Source: a virus. From it: a stretch of DNA of 35,835 nucleotides. The notes below the pieces were generated by a model. The model was given only the letters and a program-made list of their open reading frames with translations, was not told where the DNA came from and did no database searches. Positions within the stretch are counted from its first letter, which is position 1; the number at the start of each line of letters is the position of its first letter. Made by a program: the position numbers and the translations under genes. The stretch spans positions 1 to 35,835 of IMG/VR virus record IMGVR_UViG_3300048031_000094, one strand, 5' to 3'. Positions 3,851 through 20,668 of the stretch are shown piece after piece.

Positions 3851-4633
3851 TTATTCTAAATGCTCAGGCATTTCTATGATGCCGTCTTGGTTACTTATAT
3901 CAAGCATTAGGTCTTGTGTGTGAATATAACCACGTTTGATAGGCTTGCCAGTTTCAGGATCTGTCATCACATCATTGTAAGTTTCTCTACTGTTGATGAG
4001 TGTATCAAGGGTAGCTTTCTCATTACGTGTTTTCATACGTTTGACCTTTGCAAACTCTGATAACTTAGTGTATTTACCAAAGTCTATACCAGTCTGACCT
4101 TTGATCATTGGTCTGAAGTGAGTGAGTAAGCAATGAAAAGCATCATTGAGTGAAGCATATTGCTGACGCATCTGATCAATCTTCTTGTCATGATCTTCTA
4201 GCTTGTTGCCAGTAATCTCAATGCCAACGTCCTGACGTACAAGAACTTGTCTTTCACGAAGCATACGTTCTGCTTGATCCTGAACTGAATCACGCATTTT
4301 CTCAAACATTCTAGGTAACTGATCTTGAAGCTTGGCTTTGAGTATAACCTCATCTCCATCTTCAAACATCTCAGCAAATGCTAAGGCACGACGTGTAAAC
4401 TCTTGATGCCACTCCTCATTGTATTTAGACTTAGGTTTGAAAGCCTTTGCAATATTATCTAGTTGCTCTGTAGTCATAGCATCTAGCTCTTTCTTAGCCT
4501 TGTGCTGATCTGGTGTACGATTCTCATACTGCCATTCTGCAAGTGCAATGTTTGCTTGCGTAAGATGGGGCATATTTAACCTCTTACGCATTTGGTCAGA
4601 TTTATCTTTTGATATTGAAATATACTGTGTCAT
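3851..4633 (-). CDS. Hypothetical early protein, 260 aa
   Basis: This is a soluble, charged, largely helical 260-residue protein. A coiled-coil-like region (about residues 95-165) is rich in Gln, Arg, Asp and Met. The C-terminal part includes DPETGKPIKRGYIHTQDLMLDIS. I do not recognise a family, and no catalytic motif, Walker box or zinc motif is visible. It is the longest gene in the leftward early arm and sits second after the control region, so a role in host takeover or replication is plausible but unproven. GGAAC lies six bases before the ATG. Confidence 0.8.
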   Translation of the reverse strand: MTQYISISKDKSDQMRKRLNMPHLTQANIALAEWQYENRTPDQHKAKKELDAMTTEQLDNIAKAFKPKSKYNEEWHQEFTRRALAFAEMFEDGDEVILKAKLQDQLPRMFEKMRDSVQDQAERMLRERQVLVRQDVGIEITGNKLEDHDKKIDQMRQQYASLNDAFHCLLTHFRPMIKGQTGIDFGKYTKLSEFAKVKRMKTRNEKATLDTLINSRETYNDVMTDPETGKPIKRGYIHTQDLMLDISNQDGIIEMPEHLE

Positions 4634-4701: not shown

Positions 4702-4944
4702 TTAATTCATGTCACGTTTGATTGTGAGCAATTCTTGCACACGTTGTGTGTCACCAGCTTCATGTGCTTGCTGTATGTCCCAATCTATTTGTTTAGATGG
4801 TTGTGTATCTTCTCTGAATGGCATACGCATGTCACTAACTCCATGAGATGCTATGTCCTCGTAGTATTGTATAGATACCATATCCTCCAATATAGATAGA
4901 TCAGTTGGTTGGCTTTTCTTGAATAAGTCTAATTGTTTATACAT
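4702..4944 (-). CDS. Hypothetical protein, 80 aa (first leftward gene)
   Basis: This is an 80-residue acidic protein that begins MYKQLDLFKKSQPTDLSILE and ends with a helical repeat-like segment (QAHEAGDTQRVQELLTIKRD). Its YKQLDLF start loosely resembles clamp-binding (PIP-like) QxxLxLF motifs, which bind the bacterial sliding clamp. The match is suggestive only, but interesting because this phage must use the host replisome. It is promoter-proximal to the control region, with AAAGGAAC before the ATG. No family is recognised. Confidence 0.7.
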   Translation of the reverse strand: MYKQLDLFKKSQPTDLSILEDMVSIQYYEDIASHGVSDMRMPFREDTQPSKQIDWDIQQAHEAGDTQRVQELLTIKRDMN

Positions 4945-4991
4945 TGTAATGTTCCTTTCAGTATAAAAGTTAAATACTCCTACGAAATTGT

Positions 4992-5005
4992 AGAATACGT
5001 ATTCT
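4992..5005. promoter_or_regulatory. 14-base perfect palindrome, possible operator
   Basis: AGAATACGTATTCT is a perfect palindrome 48 bases upstream of the first leftward gene. Its position suits a repressor or activator dimer, for example the XRE protein encoded at 34504. No second copy was seen in the window. Confidence 0.4.
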
Positions 5006-5039
5006 TCGGCTTATCGGAAAGGTTTAGTCAATGCCCCGT

Positions 5040-5242
5040 AATGGAAAGAAAATCGTCTTTGTCGAACACTTGTGAGCTATTTTCTTGGAATGAAGACGTA
5101 GTACTCCAACTTGTTGGAGGGGGCTTTATTAGTCCTCGGGAGATAGGCCCAACTGGAGGTTATGATACAAATTCGTAGTAGTAGTTGTGCCGATAGGCAC
5201 TCCTTATGTTTGGGCTACCCTTTTATAAAGGGTTGATTTTTT
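5040..5242 (+). ncRNA. Candidate structured small RNA ending in an intrinsic terminator
   Basis: The + strand here carries several stems. AAGAAAAT (5046-5053) pairs with ATTTTCTT (5079-5086), and the adjacent CGTCTT (5054-5059) pairs with AAGACG (5093-5098); the order makes a pseudoknot or two exclusive folds. Then come CTCCAA/TTGGAG with a CTTG loop (5104-5119), GCCCAA (5147-5152) with TTGGGC (5210-5215), and inside that GTGCC/GGCAC with a GATA loop (5187-5200). A rightward terminator follows at once. All genes upstream point left, so nothing else explains a rightward terminator. The 5' end and promoter are not located. This is a prediction from pairing alone. Confidence 0.45.
5217..5242 (+). 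terminator. Rightward intrinsic terminator
   Basis: ACCCTTT (5217-5223) and AAAGGGT (5227-5233) form a 7-bp stem with a 3-base loop, followed after TGA by six T residues. The minus strand lacks a T-run on the other side, so it acts rightward. Confidence 0.65.
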
Positions 5243-5380
5243 GAAGCAACGGCTTTTGGAAATACGATCATATCCACAAGGCTATGACAAGAACAAGATG
5301 CAATGTAAGGAATCTTACGAAGTGAGATGAGTGGAATGTAATCTGGTTCTAAGTATTTACAAAAACGGACTGGAGTAAAA

Positions 5381-5409
5381 TTGATAACATAAGTTCTATT
5401 AGTTGTTAT
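5381..5409 (+). promoter_or_regulatory. Possible sigma70 promoter, rightward
   Basis: TTGATA (5381-5386; 5 of 6 match) is followed after 17 bases by TGTTAT (5404-5409; 4 of 6). The start would fall near 5416, within the interrupted inverted repeat, so the repeat could act as an operator. It would drive the terminase operon early with host RNA polymerase. Confidence 0.35.
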
Positions 5410-5410
5410 C

Positions 5411-5446
5411 ATGATTATGTATGGCTCGATGCCATCTCATAATCAT
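5411..5446. promoter_or_regulatory. Interrupted inverted repeat overlapping promoter start
   Basis: ATGATTATG (5411-5419) matches CATAATCAT (5438-5446), with ATGGC/GCCAT nested inside (5421-5435), giving 14 paired positions. It is either an operator at the rightward promoter or a stable 5' leader hairpin. It overlaps the start of a small leftward frame that I reject. Confidence 0.45.
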
Positions 5447-5467
5447 TAGTCATAACAAGGAGTTAGG

Positions 5468-5481
5468 AATGTGAATAGACA
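5468..5481 (+). promoter_or_regulatory. Promoter-like motif upstream of terS
   Basis: AATGTGAATAGACA lies 54 bases before the small-terminase start and is nearly identical to the copy at 6054 (AATGTGAAAAGACA). It is part of a genome-wide set described in the findings. Confidence 0.55.
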
Positions 5482-5534
5482 GCATAATAGCACCTATGGT
5501 TATCATCTCGTAGAGAAACAGTAAGAGACTTACA

Positions 5535-5966
5535 ATGAAAGCAAATACTACACAACAAGAAAGATATAAGGGTTCGATTGTTCCGATGAATGACATAGAA
5601 ACGAACAGTCAAACATTACTTCCAACACATAGTAAAGTAACAGAAGCACAAGCTGAGTTAGTACACGCAATGTTGCATGATGGTTGCAACCCCACAGAAG
5701 GGGCAAAGAGACTGGGTAGGAACAAGGCATGGGCATACATAACCCTTAACAAGCCTCATGTTGTAGAGTATAGACAACAATTAGCAATGAGTTGTTTAGG
5801 TTGGGACGCAACACAAGCACTAGCAACTATGAGAGATCTGTTAACTAGCAAGTCATCGCATGTTAGACTAGAAGCATCTAGAGATTTAATGGACAGAGCT
5901 GGACTCAGGGTTGATGCACCTAAGTCAGTGAACACTGCAGTAAACATTAACTTCAACGTTGATTGA
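5535..5966 (+). CDS. terS: Putative terminase small subunit
   Basis: The 143-residue product has an N-terminal helix-turn-helix region (about 36-75, with EGAKRLGRNKAWAYITL as the likely recognition part). Its C-terminal half is typical of phage small terminases (SHVRLEASRDLMDRAGLRVD, about 108-127). Such subunits bind the packaging start site and load the large terminase. It is first in the rightward late operon, with TerL two genes downstream, which fits. The Shine-Dalgarno is weak (AGAG); an internal ATG at 5586 has no better site. The packaging role is inference from domain style and position. Confidence 0.7.
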   Translation: MKANTTQQERYKGSIVPMNDIETNSQTLLPTHSKVTEAQAELVHAMLHDGCNPTEGAKRLGRNKAWAYITLNKPHVVEYRQQLAMSCLGWDATQALATMRDLLTSKSSHVRLEASRDLMDRAGLRVDAPKSVNTAVNINFNVD

Positions 5967-6120: not shown

Positions 6121-6792
6121 ATGGGTAGCGAAGATTCAGGTCCATCGGATTCAGACTTTGGTAGAGTGAGTGGTGGTAGGTCAGTAAAAAGTTCTAGTTC
6201 TAATACTGGTAAAGATAGTAGAGATGCTAGAGCTAAAAGCAGAAAGACATCATTTCAAAATTATCAAAAGCAAAGAGATGCTGCTAAAAAAGGAATTGAT
6301 GTAGCTATAACTGCCAAAGAAGCAAATACTGTAAGAGACAATGCAAGTATTGCTATGGACTTTGACCAAAAAGCAAAAGATTCAAAAGTAAATATTCCTG
6401 GGACAACAGGTGTAGCATTAAGCACATTACAAAGTATTAATTATAGTAACATTGCTTCTGGACTCAGAGATGGTGGTTATGCCGTAACCAGTTCTAAAGA
6501 TGGAAGTGTCCAAGGTGTTGTTAATAATGGACGATATTCTGGTAATGTAGGATTTAGTCCTATAGGCAGAACAAGTGGTGCAGAATTTAATATGGGTACT
6601 AATCAATATTCAGTTGAACAAAGTCAAGACTCAAATGAAGGTAGTGAGAATAACAACATGACTCCTTCTAGAACTCAGACATCTGTTGTTAACACTACAA
6701 ATAGTACATCTGCACCAACATTAAGCACTGCATCTAGGCGTGCATTAATATCTGGAGCTGGTGGTGGAGCTGCAAGAAGAAATCTAATATGA
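6121..6792 (+). CDS. Low-complexity Ser/Asn/Gly-rich protein, 223 aa
   Basis: The 223-residue sequence is dominated by Ser, Asn, Gly and Thr, with a charged stretch at about 30-65 that is probably helical. The C-terminal 50 residues are Thr/Ser-rich and end in a Gly/Ala/Arg patch. No family is recognised. It sits between terS and terL and overlaps the terL start by four bases, so it is co-expressed with the packaging genes. A structural or packaging accessory role is possible. AAGGAG is well placed before the ATG, and the frame is long for this AT-rich region, so the gene is real. Confidence 0.75.
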   Translation: MGSEDSGPSDSDFGRVSGGRSVKSSSSNTGKDSRDARAKSRKTSFQNYQKQRDAAKKGIDVAITAKEANTVRDNASIAMDFDQKAKDSKVNIPGTTGVALSTLQSINYSNIASGLRDGGYAVTSSKDGSVQGVVNNGRYSGNVGFSPIGRTSGAEFNMGTNQYSVEQSQDSNEGSENNNMTPSRTQTSVVNTTNSTSAPTLSTASRRALISGAGGGAARRNLI

Positions 6793-8330
6793 AATTAGAT
6801 TATAAACCTCCTGGGAGTGTTGCCAAAGCTTTTATGAAAGATGGTTCTTTTGTTCGTGGTATCAGGGGTCCAGTTGGCAGTGGTAAATCCGTTACTTGTT
6901 GTATGGAGATTATGCGAAAGTCTGTTAATCAAAAGCCAAATCAACAAGGTATAAGAAAAAGCAGATGGGCAGTTATAAGAAATACCAATCCACAATTAAA
7001 AACAACTACGATTAAAACGTGGAGAGATTGGTTTGACGATGATCTAGGTCGGTTTGTCTGGTCGCCTCCATATACACATAATATATGTTTTGCACTTGGA
7101 GATAAAACAACAGTTGAACTAGAAGTTATCTTCTTGGCTTTAGATAAGACTGAAGATGTAAAAAAGTTATTATCTTTAGAGTTAAGTGGTGTTTGGATAA
7201 ATGAAGCAAGGGAAATAAATAAAAATATTGTTGATGCATGTACTATGCGTGTTGGTCGTTTTCCTTCAATGCGTGAAGGTGGTCCAACTTGGTATGGTGT
7301 TATTATGGATACAAATGCTCCAAGTGAAGATCACTGGTGGGGCATTGTAGCTGGGGAAGTTGCTATACCTGAGTATATGACTTCTGAAGAAAGGTTATTA
7401 ATGATCAAGCCTGATGATTGGAATTTCTTTTCTCAGCCTGGGGCGATGAAAGAAAAGAAAGATGATCATGGTAATCTTGCAGGCTACCAACCTAATATGA
7501 AATCAGAAAATAGAGAGAACTTGCAAGAATCTTATTATGATAAAATTATATTAGGTAAAGCACCATCTTGGGTTAAGGTATATGTGTTAAATGAATATCA
7601 AGCATTGATGGATGGTAAGCCAGTATATCCTACATTCAGAAGAGATACACATGTATCAAAAGATCCTTTATCACCTAATGATCAAAATGATGTAATTGTT
7701 GGCATTGACTTTGGTCGCTCCCCTTCGGCTGTCTTTTGTCAGCAATTACATACTGGTCGATGGATTGTTTTTCATGAAATAATTGGTAAAGACATGGGGG
7801 CTATCAGATTTGCTGAGATATTAAAAAGAGAAATATCAAAAAACCAATGGGATAAGTTAACATTTAAGTTTATTGGTGATCCAGCAGGAAACCAAATGGC
7901 ACAAGTTTCAGAGCATACTCCATTTATGATGTTAAGAGCTGCAGGAATATCTGCATATCCAGCACCAACAAATGATATATCCATAAGAGTAGAAGCAGTT
8001 GAGTCTGTTATTAACAGAATGTCAGATGGGCAACCATCTATTACCATTAGCCCTACATGTACTAGCTTAATTTCTGGATTTGAAGGTGGTTATCAGTATA
8101 AAAGAATGTATTATATGGGAAATGAAAGATATGAAGAGAAACCTGATAAAAATAGGTTCTCTCATTGTCATGATGCGTTGCAATATGCGTTTTTAGGTGG
8201 AGGAGAAGGCAGAAAAGTGATATTAGGTCCTAGAACACCTACTTCCCCCACTACTGTTGAGAGGGCAAGTAATCCATTTGCACGTTTGAAAAAAAGAAAT
8301 AGTCGTTTTGGGAGACAAAGAGCAATATGA
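6789..8330 (+). CDS. terL: Terminase large subunit
   Basis: The 513-residue protein has the ATPase and nuclease halves of a phage large terminase. Walker A is GPVGSGKS (27-34) and Walker B lies at VWINEA (about 135-140). The nuclease acids appear in VGIDFGRS (about 302), FIGDPAG (about 361) and HCHDALQYAFLGGG near the C-terminus. It uses ATP to pump DNA into proheads through the portal and cuts the concatemer. Its length is normal for the family. It overlaps the gene before it by four bases and the one after by four, in a compact operon. The start ATG has only a weak ribosome site, which fits translation coupled to the overlap. Confidence 0.95.
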   Translation: MKLDYKPPGSVAKAFMKDGSFVRGIRGPVGSGKSVTCCMEIMRKSVNQKPNQQGIRKSRWAVIRNTNPQLKTTTIKTWRDWFDDDLGRFVWSPPYTHNICFALGDKTTVELEVIFLALDKTEDVKKLLSLELSGVWINEAREINKNIVDACTMRVGRFPSMREGGPTWYGVIMDTNAPSEDHWWGIVAGEVAIPEYMTSEERLLMIKPDDWNFFSQPGAMKEKKDDHGNLAGYQPNMKSENRENLQESYYDKIILGKAPSWVKVYVLNEYQALMDGKPVYPTFRRDTHVSKDPLSPNDQNDVIVGIDFGRSPSAVFCQQLHTGRWIVFHEIIGKDMGAIRFAEILKREISKNQWDKLTFKFIGDPAGNQMAQVSEHTPFMMLRAAGISAYPAPTNDISIRVEAVESVINRMSDGQPSITISPTCTSLISGFEGGYQYKRMYYMGNERYEEKPDKNRFSHCHDALQYAFLGGGEGRKVILGPRTPTSPTTVERASNPFARLKKRNSRFGRQRAI

Positions 8331-17656: not shown

Positions 17657-20600
17657 ATGGCTATTAAAAGAACTATACAAAGACAAATTTTAGTAAAGCC
17701 AACTGGTGTAAATGATGCAGGAGCAGGGGCTAAGGCTATGGCACAAGCAGGCCAAAACATAGCCAATACTATTTCTAATGTAACTAGCTTTATAGATGAT
17801 AAGCAACTTGAAGATGCTGTGTTAGATGCTGAAATCAAAGGTAAGCAGATTGGCACACAGACTGTTAAAGATAAAGATGGTAATTTAGTTCCCAAACCAT
17901 TGGATTTAATGACACTAAATTCATTCACATCAGATATATATAACAAAAGAAACTTAAGAAAAGCTCAACAATATTTTAAAAATCAAGCAATCAACAGTTA
18001 TGGATTGTCTTTACAAAATCATGCAGTTGATACAGCTAACAATTTCTTGGCAATGAATGAAGGTAAGGTTGATGAAAAAGGCAATCTTATGGTTAGAAAT
18101 GCTGGAGATAGTTATATAGATGGTATTAAGAAGCAAGTTGCTCCAGAAGTATTTGCTGCAATTAGTCCTACACTAAGTAACATATGGGGTAAGGCGACAA
18201 GAAAAGCTTCTGCAATACAAATCAAAAATGTAAAAGAAACTAATATTTTTAACGCAACTAAAGGTTTGCAAAATATATTACAAATGGAAATTAATTCTAT
18301 TTCCAATGGTGGTAATGATGAAGATGCATATATTATAGAAACAACTAAGCCAAAAATGTTTGATATAATTGATCAAAATGTTAGTAGCAAAATACAAGGA
18401 GAAAAAATAAAGTTAGAATATAATCAATCATTACAGACTGGTGTTGCTGTAAATGCTGTTGATTTAGCATATGAAGCTGGGGTCTCTATTCCAGAACTTC
18501 TTAACATGTCCATATCAACAGGTAAAAATTTTGCTAATAACGTAGATATAGATGGTGATAAAATTGCAACAGCTATGAGAGCTAAAATTGCTATTTACGA
18601 ACAAATGGAAAAAGATCTTTTACAAAAACGAACATATGATTCTAGAGTTTTAGTTTCTAATCTAGAGTTAAATGTACAAAATGGGATAGTAGTTAAAGAA
18701 TCTGATGTAGCTAAACTTACTGATATGGATCAAAATAGATTTAGTAAGTTTAAAAATGCATACAATAAGACTAGTGATAATAATGCTTCTAAAATATTTA
18801 ATCTACAAATTGAAAATAAAATCGACAGAATAAAAGCAGATATTATTAAACCAGCAAAACCTGATTTAGTAAATGAATTATCTGGAGAAACACAGCCTAT
18901 ACTTAAAAACAGAGCAAAAGTATCTTTGATAAATGAATTGGTTGAAAAAGTTGGCCATAAAGATATGAGCAACACTAATAGGAGAAAAATACTTAATCTT
19001 GTTAATGATGTTGCAAAACAAACATTGAAACTAGACAACGATACATTTAAAGCAAATATAGAACGTATGTTTAATGGCAGTGTATCTACTATTATGATAC
19101 CTCCAGAAACTTTATTAACACCACAATATATAGACTCATTAAAAGCTAGAAACGTTATAGGTATTACACCTGAGAATGCTTATACTGAAGAGTCATGGAT
19201 AAAAAGAGTTAATACATACGCAAAAGATTATAGAATTAAACAAAATGAAATTTATCAAGCTAGCCAGTTAGGTTATAATTTAGAAAACAATATAGGATAC
19301 ACAAACCCACAAAAGACTTATATGGACAATAAGTTAATGCCTAAAACATTTGTTATGAATGGTAATACTGTAGATATAGATATTCTAAATTCAAACGAAG
19401 ATATTAGAAACGAAAGTCTTAAGATAGTAACAAGTCATGTAACTTCATTGGGATATATACCTAAGAACATTTCACAAATATTTAATAGTTCAAAAACACT
19501 AAATGATGAGAATTTTGCTTATGCTAAATCTGCTTATTTAACTATTAAGAATGCTATAATTAAAAAATATCAAAATGGAGAATCTATGTTTGAGCTTATT
19601 GTAGGTGATAAGTTTAGTTCAGTTGATTCTAATTTGATGGAATCAGCTATGATGTATGACAATGCATCAGAATTTAGACAAGTTCATAGCACAACTTCTG
19701 TTAATAGAAATTTATCACAACATATAGGATCAGATCAAAATGAAACAATTACTTTTGATGAATCATTTAATAGAGTTAAAAATTATTTAGATGCAAATTT
19801 TATTGAAAGCTTTTGGGTAGATAAGGTTGGTGGTGCTGATTATGAAGACAGAGCATTAAAAGCTTGGGTTGAACAAAGTGGTGCTTCTAATTTTGATGAA
19901 GCTGTGTTCAAAGATCCTTTTATAAAAAACGAAATCATAAAAAATGTTAAAAGCCAAATAGCATCTGGTAGTGTGGCCCCAGGGCAAGTAGGGTTAGATG
20001 TTGCAGTTAAAAAAGCATTGTATAAGTTTGCAGGTAATTTAAGTGTACATCAAGATCAATTTGGAGATACTCATTTAATAAGAGGAGTGAGTATTGTAAA
20101 AGCAGCACAATCTACAGTTCCTAGTGGTGGCCCTATAGTCACTAAAGAAATAATTAAAAAAGATATGTTACGTAGATATGGAGAAACTTTTAGTGCAGGC
20201 ACAGACAGTGAAATAAATGATGCTATTGATAATGGTAATATAATGTTTGTAAAATCAAATGATGTTGTTGGAGAACCTACATATAAAGCAATAGCTATTA
20301 CTAATGATGGTAGGTATGAAACTATTGCTGATAATTATTCATGGAATTATAATGGATCACAATTACAAAGTGATTATAATGAAGCTTTACAAAAAATATC
20401 AGATGGTGGTGTTAGAAAATTATTAGGTAGTTTAGATTTTATGTCTAGAAATAACTTAGAAGCTGTAATGTCATCTATAGAAAGTAATAGAGACTATACT
20501 GAATCTTTAAAATATTTAGTTAATAGTTATAACTCTATAGCACAATCTATAAATTCTGCACCAGTGGTTTACAGTCAAATATTGCCTTACTTAAATCAAG

Positions 20601-20668
20601 GTAGGTCGGACAAAGAGCTAAGAACATTTTTTGATAACTTTAGATTGCTTAGGTTAGATATTAGATGA
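17657..20668 (+). CDS. Internal virion protein, 1003 aa (gp15-like)
   Basis: The 1003-residue, Asn/Lys/Asp-rich, mostly helical protein has no membrane segment and no visible enzyme motif. It follows the gp14-like gene and precedes another giant gene, matching the core proteins that make the ejection channel. An early segment includes AMAQAGQNIANTISNVTSFI, a common start for this type. GGAG sits well before the ATG. Assignment rests on position, size and composition. Confidence 0.75.
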   Translation: MAIKRTIQRQILVKPTGVNDAGAGAKAMAQAGQNIANTISNVTSFIDDKQLEDAVLDAEIKGKQIGTQTVKDKDGNLVPKPLDLMTLNSFTSDIYNKRNLRKAQQYFKNQAINSYGLSLQNHAVDTANNFLAMNEGKVDEKGNLMVRNAGDSYIDGIKKQVAPEVFAAISPTLSNIWGKATRKASAIQIKNVKETNIFNATKGLQNILQMEINSISNGGNDEDAYIIETTKPKMFDIIDQNVSSKIQGEKIKLEYNQSLQTGVAVNAVDLAYEAGVSIPELLNMSISTGKNFANNVDIDGDKIATAMRAKIAIYEQMEKDLLQKRTYDSRVLVSNLELNVQNGIVVKESDVAKLTDMDQNRFSKFKNAYNKTSDNNASKIFNLQIENKIDRIKADIIKPAKPDLVNELSGETQPILKNRAKVSLINELVEKVGHKDMSNTNRRKILNLVNDVAKQTLKLDNDTFKANIERMFNGSVSTIMIPPETLLTPQYIDSLKARNVIGITPENAYTEESWIKRVNTYAKDYRIKQNEIYQASQLGYNLENNIGYTNPQKTYMDNKLMPKTFVMNGNTVDIDILNSNEDIRNESLKIVTSHVTSLGYIPKNISQIFNSSKTLNDENFAYAKSAYLTIKNAIIKKYQNGESMFELIVGDKFSSVDSNLMESAMMYDNASEFRQVHSTTSVNRNLSQHIGSDQNETITFDESFNRVKNYLDANFIESFWVDKVGGADYEDRALKAWVEQSGASNFDEAVFKDPFIKNEIIKNVKSQIASGSVAPGQVGLDVAVKKALYKFAGNLSVHQDQFGDTHLIRGVSIVKAAQSTVPSGGPIVTKEIIKKDMLRRYGETFSAGTDSEINDAIDNGNIMFVKSNDVVGEPTYKAIAITNDGRYETIADNYSWNYNGSQLQSDYNEALQKISDGGVRKLLGSLDFMSRNNLEAVMSSIESNRDYTESLKYLVNSYNSIAQSINSAPVVYSQILPYLNQGRSDKELRTFFDNFRLLRLDIR

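Follow-up and report, generated by a model that had tools for sequence, protein, structure and literature searches.

The window analysed here is the whole 35,835-nucleotide stretch of virus record IMGVR_UViG_3300048031_000094, a pelagiphage-like phage of 35.8 kb with a podovirus-like gene order, whose closest annotated relative by TerL is Pelagibacter phage EXVC031P Hodr (55% identity). Small leftward genes end at 4944, and terS, terL and the genes for the head-tail adaptor, head and tail are all oriented rightward. Between the two blocks lies a gap of 590 bases (4945-5534), where the RNA described below is found (Table 1). No tRNA or tmRNA was found within the window. Two proteins have no PHROG match, one of 1003 amino acids in the structural block (17657-20668) and a leftward one of 260 amino acids (3851-4633). 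An earlier note had proposed a rightward structured RNA at 5040-5242, and all the complementary segments that it quoted are present in the sequence at their places. Folded alone, this stretch gives a modest z score of -1.88 (9 of 200 shuffles are as good), and a single sequence would therefore not prove the structure. Comparison with relatives indicates that the gap does encode a real rightward, multi-domain, structured non-coding RNA sequence, always located just upstream of terS. Its size is at least about 380-450 bases, with at least two domains and probably a third. The limits first proposed cut through this object, since the long-range closing helix P1 starts upstream of 5040, at about 4980, and conserved helices continue to about 5358 and probably 5446; the RNA is thus more than twice as long as the 180 bases or so initially suggested.

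Table 1. Positions of the RNA elements and of the neighbouring genes in the window.
Feature	Position	Strand	Remarks
Domain 1	4977-5185	+	Closed by P1; contains P2-P6; ends in the (GTA)n junction, 5175-5185
P1, long-range closing helix	4980-4992 / 5166-5178	+	
P2	5009-5015 / 5142-5148	+	
P3	5025-5028 / 5128-5131	+	
P4	5030-5037 / 5120-5127	+	
P5 core hairpin	5046-5086	+	Stem AAGAAAAT (5046-5053) / ATTTTCTT (5079-5086); internal loop AAAATCGTCTYTGT(C/A)GA ... GAGCTATTTT nearly invariant
P6 hairpin, CTCCAAC/GTTGGAG	5104-5110 / 5113-5119	+	Pairing kept, sequence wholly changed
Domain 2	~5187-5375	+	
P7 hairpin GTGCCGATAGGCAC, GTGCC/GGCAC	5187-5200	+	Compensated in relatives (GTCCCATTAGGAC, CGCCGATTAGGCG, GTCGACGATTAGTCGAC); read directly
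TTATGTTTG element and P8	5205-5233	+	P8 is ACCCTTT (5217-5223) / AAAGGGT (5227-5233), the terminator of the earlier note
Pa, AAATAC/GTATTT	5260-5265 / 5353-5358	+	By inspection
Pb	5291-5297 / 5343-5349	+	Covariation in alignment A3
Two 3x3 GNA/GNA loops	5300-5302 / 5338-5340 and 5305-5307 / 5333-5335	+	
Pd	5312-5318 / 5322-5328	+	
Conserved GGACTGGA	5367-5374	+	3' side of domain 2
Domain 3, probable	5383-5446 (to ~5447)	+	Two hairpins with visible compensation, read directly
Domain 3 hairpin 1, GATAAC/GTTATC	5383-5388 / 5405-5410	+	GGCAAC/GTTGCC in L079
Domain 3 hairpin 2, ATGATTATG/CATAATCAT	5411-5419 / 5438-5446	+	
Promoter-like site for terS	5476-5504	+	TAGACA-17-GTTATC; read directly, weak in the window, under the scan threshold
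terS, small terminase subunit	5535-5966	+	phrog_2538, E 3.7e-7; synteny; fixed downstream neighbour
terL	6789-8330	+	

We took 80 TerL relatives from IMG/VR, among which a group of distinct ones retains the gap at about 73-90% identity. The relatives that carry the RNA are all uncultivated contigs, and distinct sequences are few (13-21 per alignment). Alignments A1, A2 and A3 were plain MAFFT alignments. From A1 (13 sequences), RNAalifold recovered P1, P2, P3, P4, P5 and P8, with double changes at 13 of the 52 predicted pairs. The double-change cells numbered 27, against a mean of 8.1 in shuffled alignments (none of 500 was as high) and a maximum of 5 when partners were slid. We also aligned domain 1 from 15 sequences, the distant L048 among them, by hand, segment by segment and guided by the structure, and the covariation result therefore leans towards that structure: double changes were present at 25 of 47 pairs, 92% of the cells were canonical, and the 73 double-change cells compare with a maximum of 28 in 500 phylogeny-aware simulations. 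This null retains the phylogeny and each branch's substitutions, and redistributes the latter over the columns. We relied on this aggregate test because single-pair tests have little power at 15 sequences. Indeed, one pair of domain 1 reached E <0.05; five of the eight pairs with E <1 belong to the structure, and 5107/5116 had the lowest E of all column pairs. Rewriting of a helix is seen in P6, which reads CTCCAAC, CCCATGC, CTTCGT, CTCAAAT or CCCCAAC according to the relative. Covariation in related genomes, which the earlier note had set as its own test, is thus found.

The rightward orientation is borne out by the G-U pairs, since all domain 1 helices together contain 45 G-U cells against 6 A-C cells when read on the plus strand. 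Folding energy does not settle the strand, because the z score of the window gap is lower on the minus strand (-3.8) than on the plus strand (-2.3). That of the L048 gap is also moderate (-3.1), the homologous gaps of L131, L107, L098, L013 and L061 fold far better than their shuffles (z -5 to -10), and two coding controls were not better than shuffles. No conserved protein frame crosses the stretch, as every frame of the region contains stops in all 15 sequences compared. Moreover, the lengths of domain 1 differ among relatives by numbers that are not divisible by three. The repeat in the 3' strand of P1 (5175-5185 and homologues) varies by lineage, being mostly (GTA)n, (GAT)n in L048, and (GT)n facing (CA)n in L131, and the pairing of P1 could slip in steps of the repeat unit.

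The most constrained part of the RNA is P5, with the consensus AAAAUCGUCUYUGU(C/A)GA-[variable hairpin]-GAGCUAUUUU, which is nearly invariant across lineages whose TerS proteins are 36% identical. A scan of viral contigs with this pattern returned 42 contigs, and a pattern with shorter flanks gave no further ones. In all 39 contigs that are long enough, terS lies on the same strand, 375-723 bases downstream of the core; the other three end too soon. Some of the carriers have TerS and TerL only 36% and 54% identical to those of the window, and their gap is otherwise without DNA similarity beyond short pieces. The outer stem of P5 covaries across lineages. In L048, the pairs AAAAT/ATTTT, which are invariant elsewhere, have become ACTGA/TCAGT, so that all but the outermost A-T are replaced and the pairing is kept. 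For the core hairpin alone, the simulations reached the observed count of paired cells in 0 of 500 runs and that of double-change cells in 3 of 500, both positive results of the aggregate test, whereas the count of doubly changed pairs was reached in 183 of 500 and was not significant. With a covariance model, a diverged version was detected in L060, at E 6e-4 when 22 sources were scanned and 1.7e-3 with 82; there, the loop has C-G where a G-C pair may otherwise form. The model also gave a marginal match in the corresponding position of L056 (E 1.9). Among 84,980 bacterial and archaeal species genomes, the pattern matched five times, each time without the stem, as expected by chance, and we found no bacterial copy; BLASTN of the core against annotated phages likewise gave chance matches only and no copy of the core. 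A kink-turn was considered for the loop and rejected on direct reading: it needs a 3-base bulge followed directly by tandem sheared G-A, and here a C-G pair separates the possible tandem GA from a bulge of about 7 bases.

Relatives also allowed us to sort the pairings proposed from the single sequence. P5, P6, P7 and P8 are kept, whereas CGTCTT/AAGACG and GCCCAA/TTGGGC are not. The former was the basis of a suggested pseudoknot; in A1, 73% of its cells are paired with a single double-change cell, and it is not supported because CGTCTT is invariant while its partner drifts without compensation. The helix GCCCAA/TTGGGC was discarded, as on inspection it fails in L079, L023 and L069 and it competes with the conserved P2. 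Regarding the rightward terminator, the window does contain the shape, a 7-pair P8 hairpin followed by TGATTTTTTG, and a scan found two such sites where 0.3 were expected. The element TTATGTTTG-hairpin-TGAAGC is conserved and occurs in other lineages too. Relatives keep the hairpin and carry TTTTGTG, TATAATG, GAGAGAGG and other sequences in place of the T-run. An intrinsic terminator at 5217-5242 is therefore rejected as a conserved feature, since the hairpin is kept, the T-run is not, and conserved structure continues downstream. As for the 3' end placed at 5242, the T-run is confined to this phage and near-identical relatives and a covarying domain 2 lies further on, so that these alignments make a main 3' end at 5242 unlikely.

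Downstream of P8, domain 2 includes Pb, two AU steps, two successive GNA/GNA loops and Pd, an arrangement that can be followed from the window as far as L131 and, in less complete form, in L048. In A3, its stem shows double changes at 15 of 22 pairs, and the 37 double-change cells were equalled in none of 500 shuffles and none of 500 simulations (simulation maximum 19). The corresponding model, R2, finds L048, which was outside the training set, with an E of 8e-7, and all its strong matches fall in this gap. In place of the probable domain 3, other relatives have an unrelated branched element. The 5' part of the RNA is also exchangeable. At the same place, L061 (5893-6618), L013, L063, L029, L039, L026 and L050 have a second type of 5' domain, with the same (GTA)n junction, without the P5 core, and with very strong folding (z -10.5 in L061 and -8.2 in L013). 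Moreover, the gaps of L068 (1016-1936), L041 (18-938) and L078 (5842-6763) are chimeric, in that a type 1 domain 1 extends as far as the GTAGTAGTAGT junction and is followed by the 3' part that otherwise accompanies the type 2 domain. These combinations indicate that the RNA is modular, and recombination seems to take place at the GTAGTAGTAGT repeat.

How might such an RNA work? We lean, by a little, towards a large phage RNA that acts in trans and resembles GOLLD and ROOL in its working while being a member of neither. The RNA would be made as its own rightward transcript, accumulate during infection and work as a stable folded molecule. A bulge of some 7 bases, a C-G pair and tandem G-A make up the loop of P5, which would serve to dock a partner that is constant from one phage lineage to the next. 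Indeed, the loop stays near letter-for-letter the same despite the divergence of TerS and of the remaining RNA; this constancy suggests that the partner is probably little changed from phage to phage. A tertiary contact within the RNA, or a host component such as the ribosome, RNA polymerase or some other RNA-binding factor, would be more likely in this role than a phage protein, because TerS itself is only 36% identical between the lineages. We also speculate, more tentatively, that this is a new modular class of large RNAs beside marine phage terminase genes, whose loop binds a conserved host machine such as the ribosome or RNA polymerase and aids host takeover, and whose 5' and 3' domains are swapped like protein domains. 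The roles offered in the earlier note, namely regulation of early genes, priming of replication and disarming of a host system, may also apply.

The main rival reading places the RNA in the leader of the late terS operon, from where it would act in cis on terS or the late genes, for instance by antitermination through contact with RNA polymerase as in HK022 put. The fixed same-strand place upstream of terS in all 39 contigs fits such a leader, and an invariant loop would suit the host polymerase or a Nus factor. The put RNA of HK022 acts in antitermination; it has a length of about 65 bases, and the promoter that it serves is located upstream of it. The comparison is functional only: both have hairpins of phage origin whose conserved loops may make contact with a host enzyme. 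In contrast, the present RNA has a promoter-like site downstream of it, read directly and weak in the window, and such sites also stand between the RNA and terS in other lineages on direct reading (TTGACA-17-CATAAA in L131 and TTGACA-18-CATAAA in L098), so that terS need not carry the RNA; this favours a separate transcript over a simple leader. A promoter scan of the window showed no clear promoter 5' of P1. Moreover, 375-723 bases would be long for a leader, and we consider this explanation doubtful.

The constant proximity to terS would also agree with an RNA that acts with the terminase in packaging, as the pRNA of phi29 does, and that phage RNA is similar in order of size to one domain of ours. 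This reading appears unlikely, as there is no sequence or Rfam match, the core is invariant despite the divergence of TerS, and the phi29 packaging system differs; the comparison is functional only, between structured RNAs of different phage types, the possible tie to packaging here being the place beside terS. The same place raises the question of a DNA-level element, a pac or cos site or a replication origin whose palindromes resemble RNA hairpins, since packaging sites often adjoin terS. The strand-asymmetric G-U count, the successive non-canonical GNA/GNA loops and the long-range P1 are features of RNA, which makes a DNA element very unlikely. Least probable of all is the small RNA of the earlier note, some 180-200 bases long and ended by the terminator at 5242. 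Some transcripts may stop at the hairpin and T-run in this phage, but the T-run is absent in most relatives that keep the hairpin, domain 2 covaries downstream, and the pseudoknot partner is not conserved.

Regarding known families, the earlier note had recognised none, and Rfam agrees: at gathering and permissive thresholds it gave weak matches only, far below gathering scores, and no family. The GOLLD and ROOL models had no match at the gathering score, nor any up to an E of 0.5 in six relatives. A weak match to group II intron domain 5 in L098 (3334-3388; E 0.025) scores 27.8 bits, where the gathering score is 61, and is probably due to chance. A literature search found no description of this RNA, and a pelagiphage transcriptome study (PMC12753301) makes no mention of non-coding RNA. 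GOLLD and ROOL, both large and ornate, occur in phages and prophages; they form cages, and their function is unknown (PMC12286853). GOLLD self-assembles into a 14-mer cage, and its binding to ribosomes has been reported in pull-downs (PMC12286853). Our RNA is like GOLLD in being large, ornate, phage-encoded and non-coding, in having a 5' part that varies and parts that can be exchanged, and in coming from marine samples (PMC12286853). However, GOLLD is often longer than 800 bases and has tRNA genes nearby, whereas the present RNA precedes terS and possesses a conserved core of its own. Similarly, it shares with ROOL the character of a large ornate phage or prophage RNA (PMC12286853), but ROOL often lies near tRNA islands and the present RNA, without a match to the Rfam model, lies beside terS. 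In phage ICP1 the most abundant transcript is an RNA of about 800 bases that lacks an ORF (PMC7567579). Compared by description, both are large non-coding RNAs of lytic phages in an ORF-less gap at a gene-cluster boundary; the ICP1 RNA belongs to another phage and is placed at the start of the lysis cluster. By its size, ornateness and phage origin, the RNA is best called a new family within the known kind of large ornate phage RNAs.

Hodr, which was isolated on Pelagibacter HTCC1062, has no match to R1 or R2, the two modelled motifs. Its control region (OQ414635, 12037-12373, minus strand; L082) contains a very long imperfect hairpin, GCCAATGTAATAACTAG ... CTAGTTATATTGGC, with a z score of -4.7, which may be an analogue in a cultured phage. 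SAR11 cells infected by pelagiphages have been reported to lose detectable ribosomes (PMC11066056). A link between this loss, or the ribosome binding of GOLLD, and RNAs like the present one is a guess. Only a few large structured RNAs are known from phages, and what they do is an open question. The present RNA would add a family to them, in marine viruses related to those that infect the ocean's commonest bacteria. This family would combine a near-invariant loop, suggestive of a specific partner, with a constant location by the packaging genes and an exchange of RNA domains between phages.
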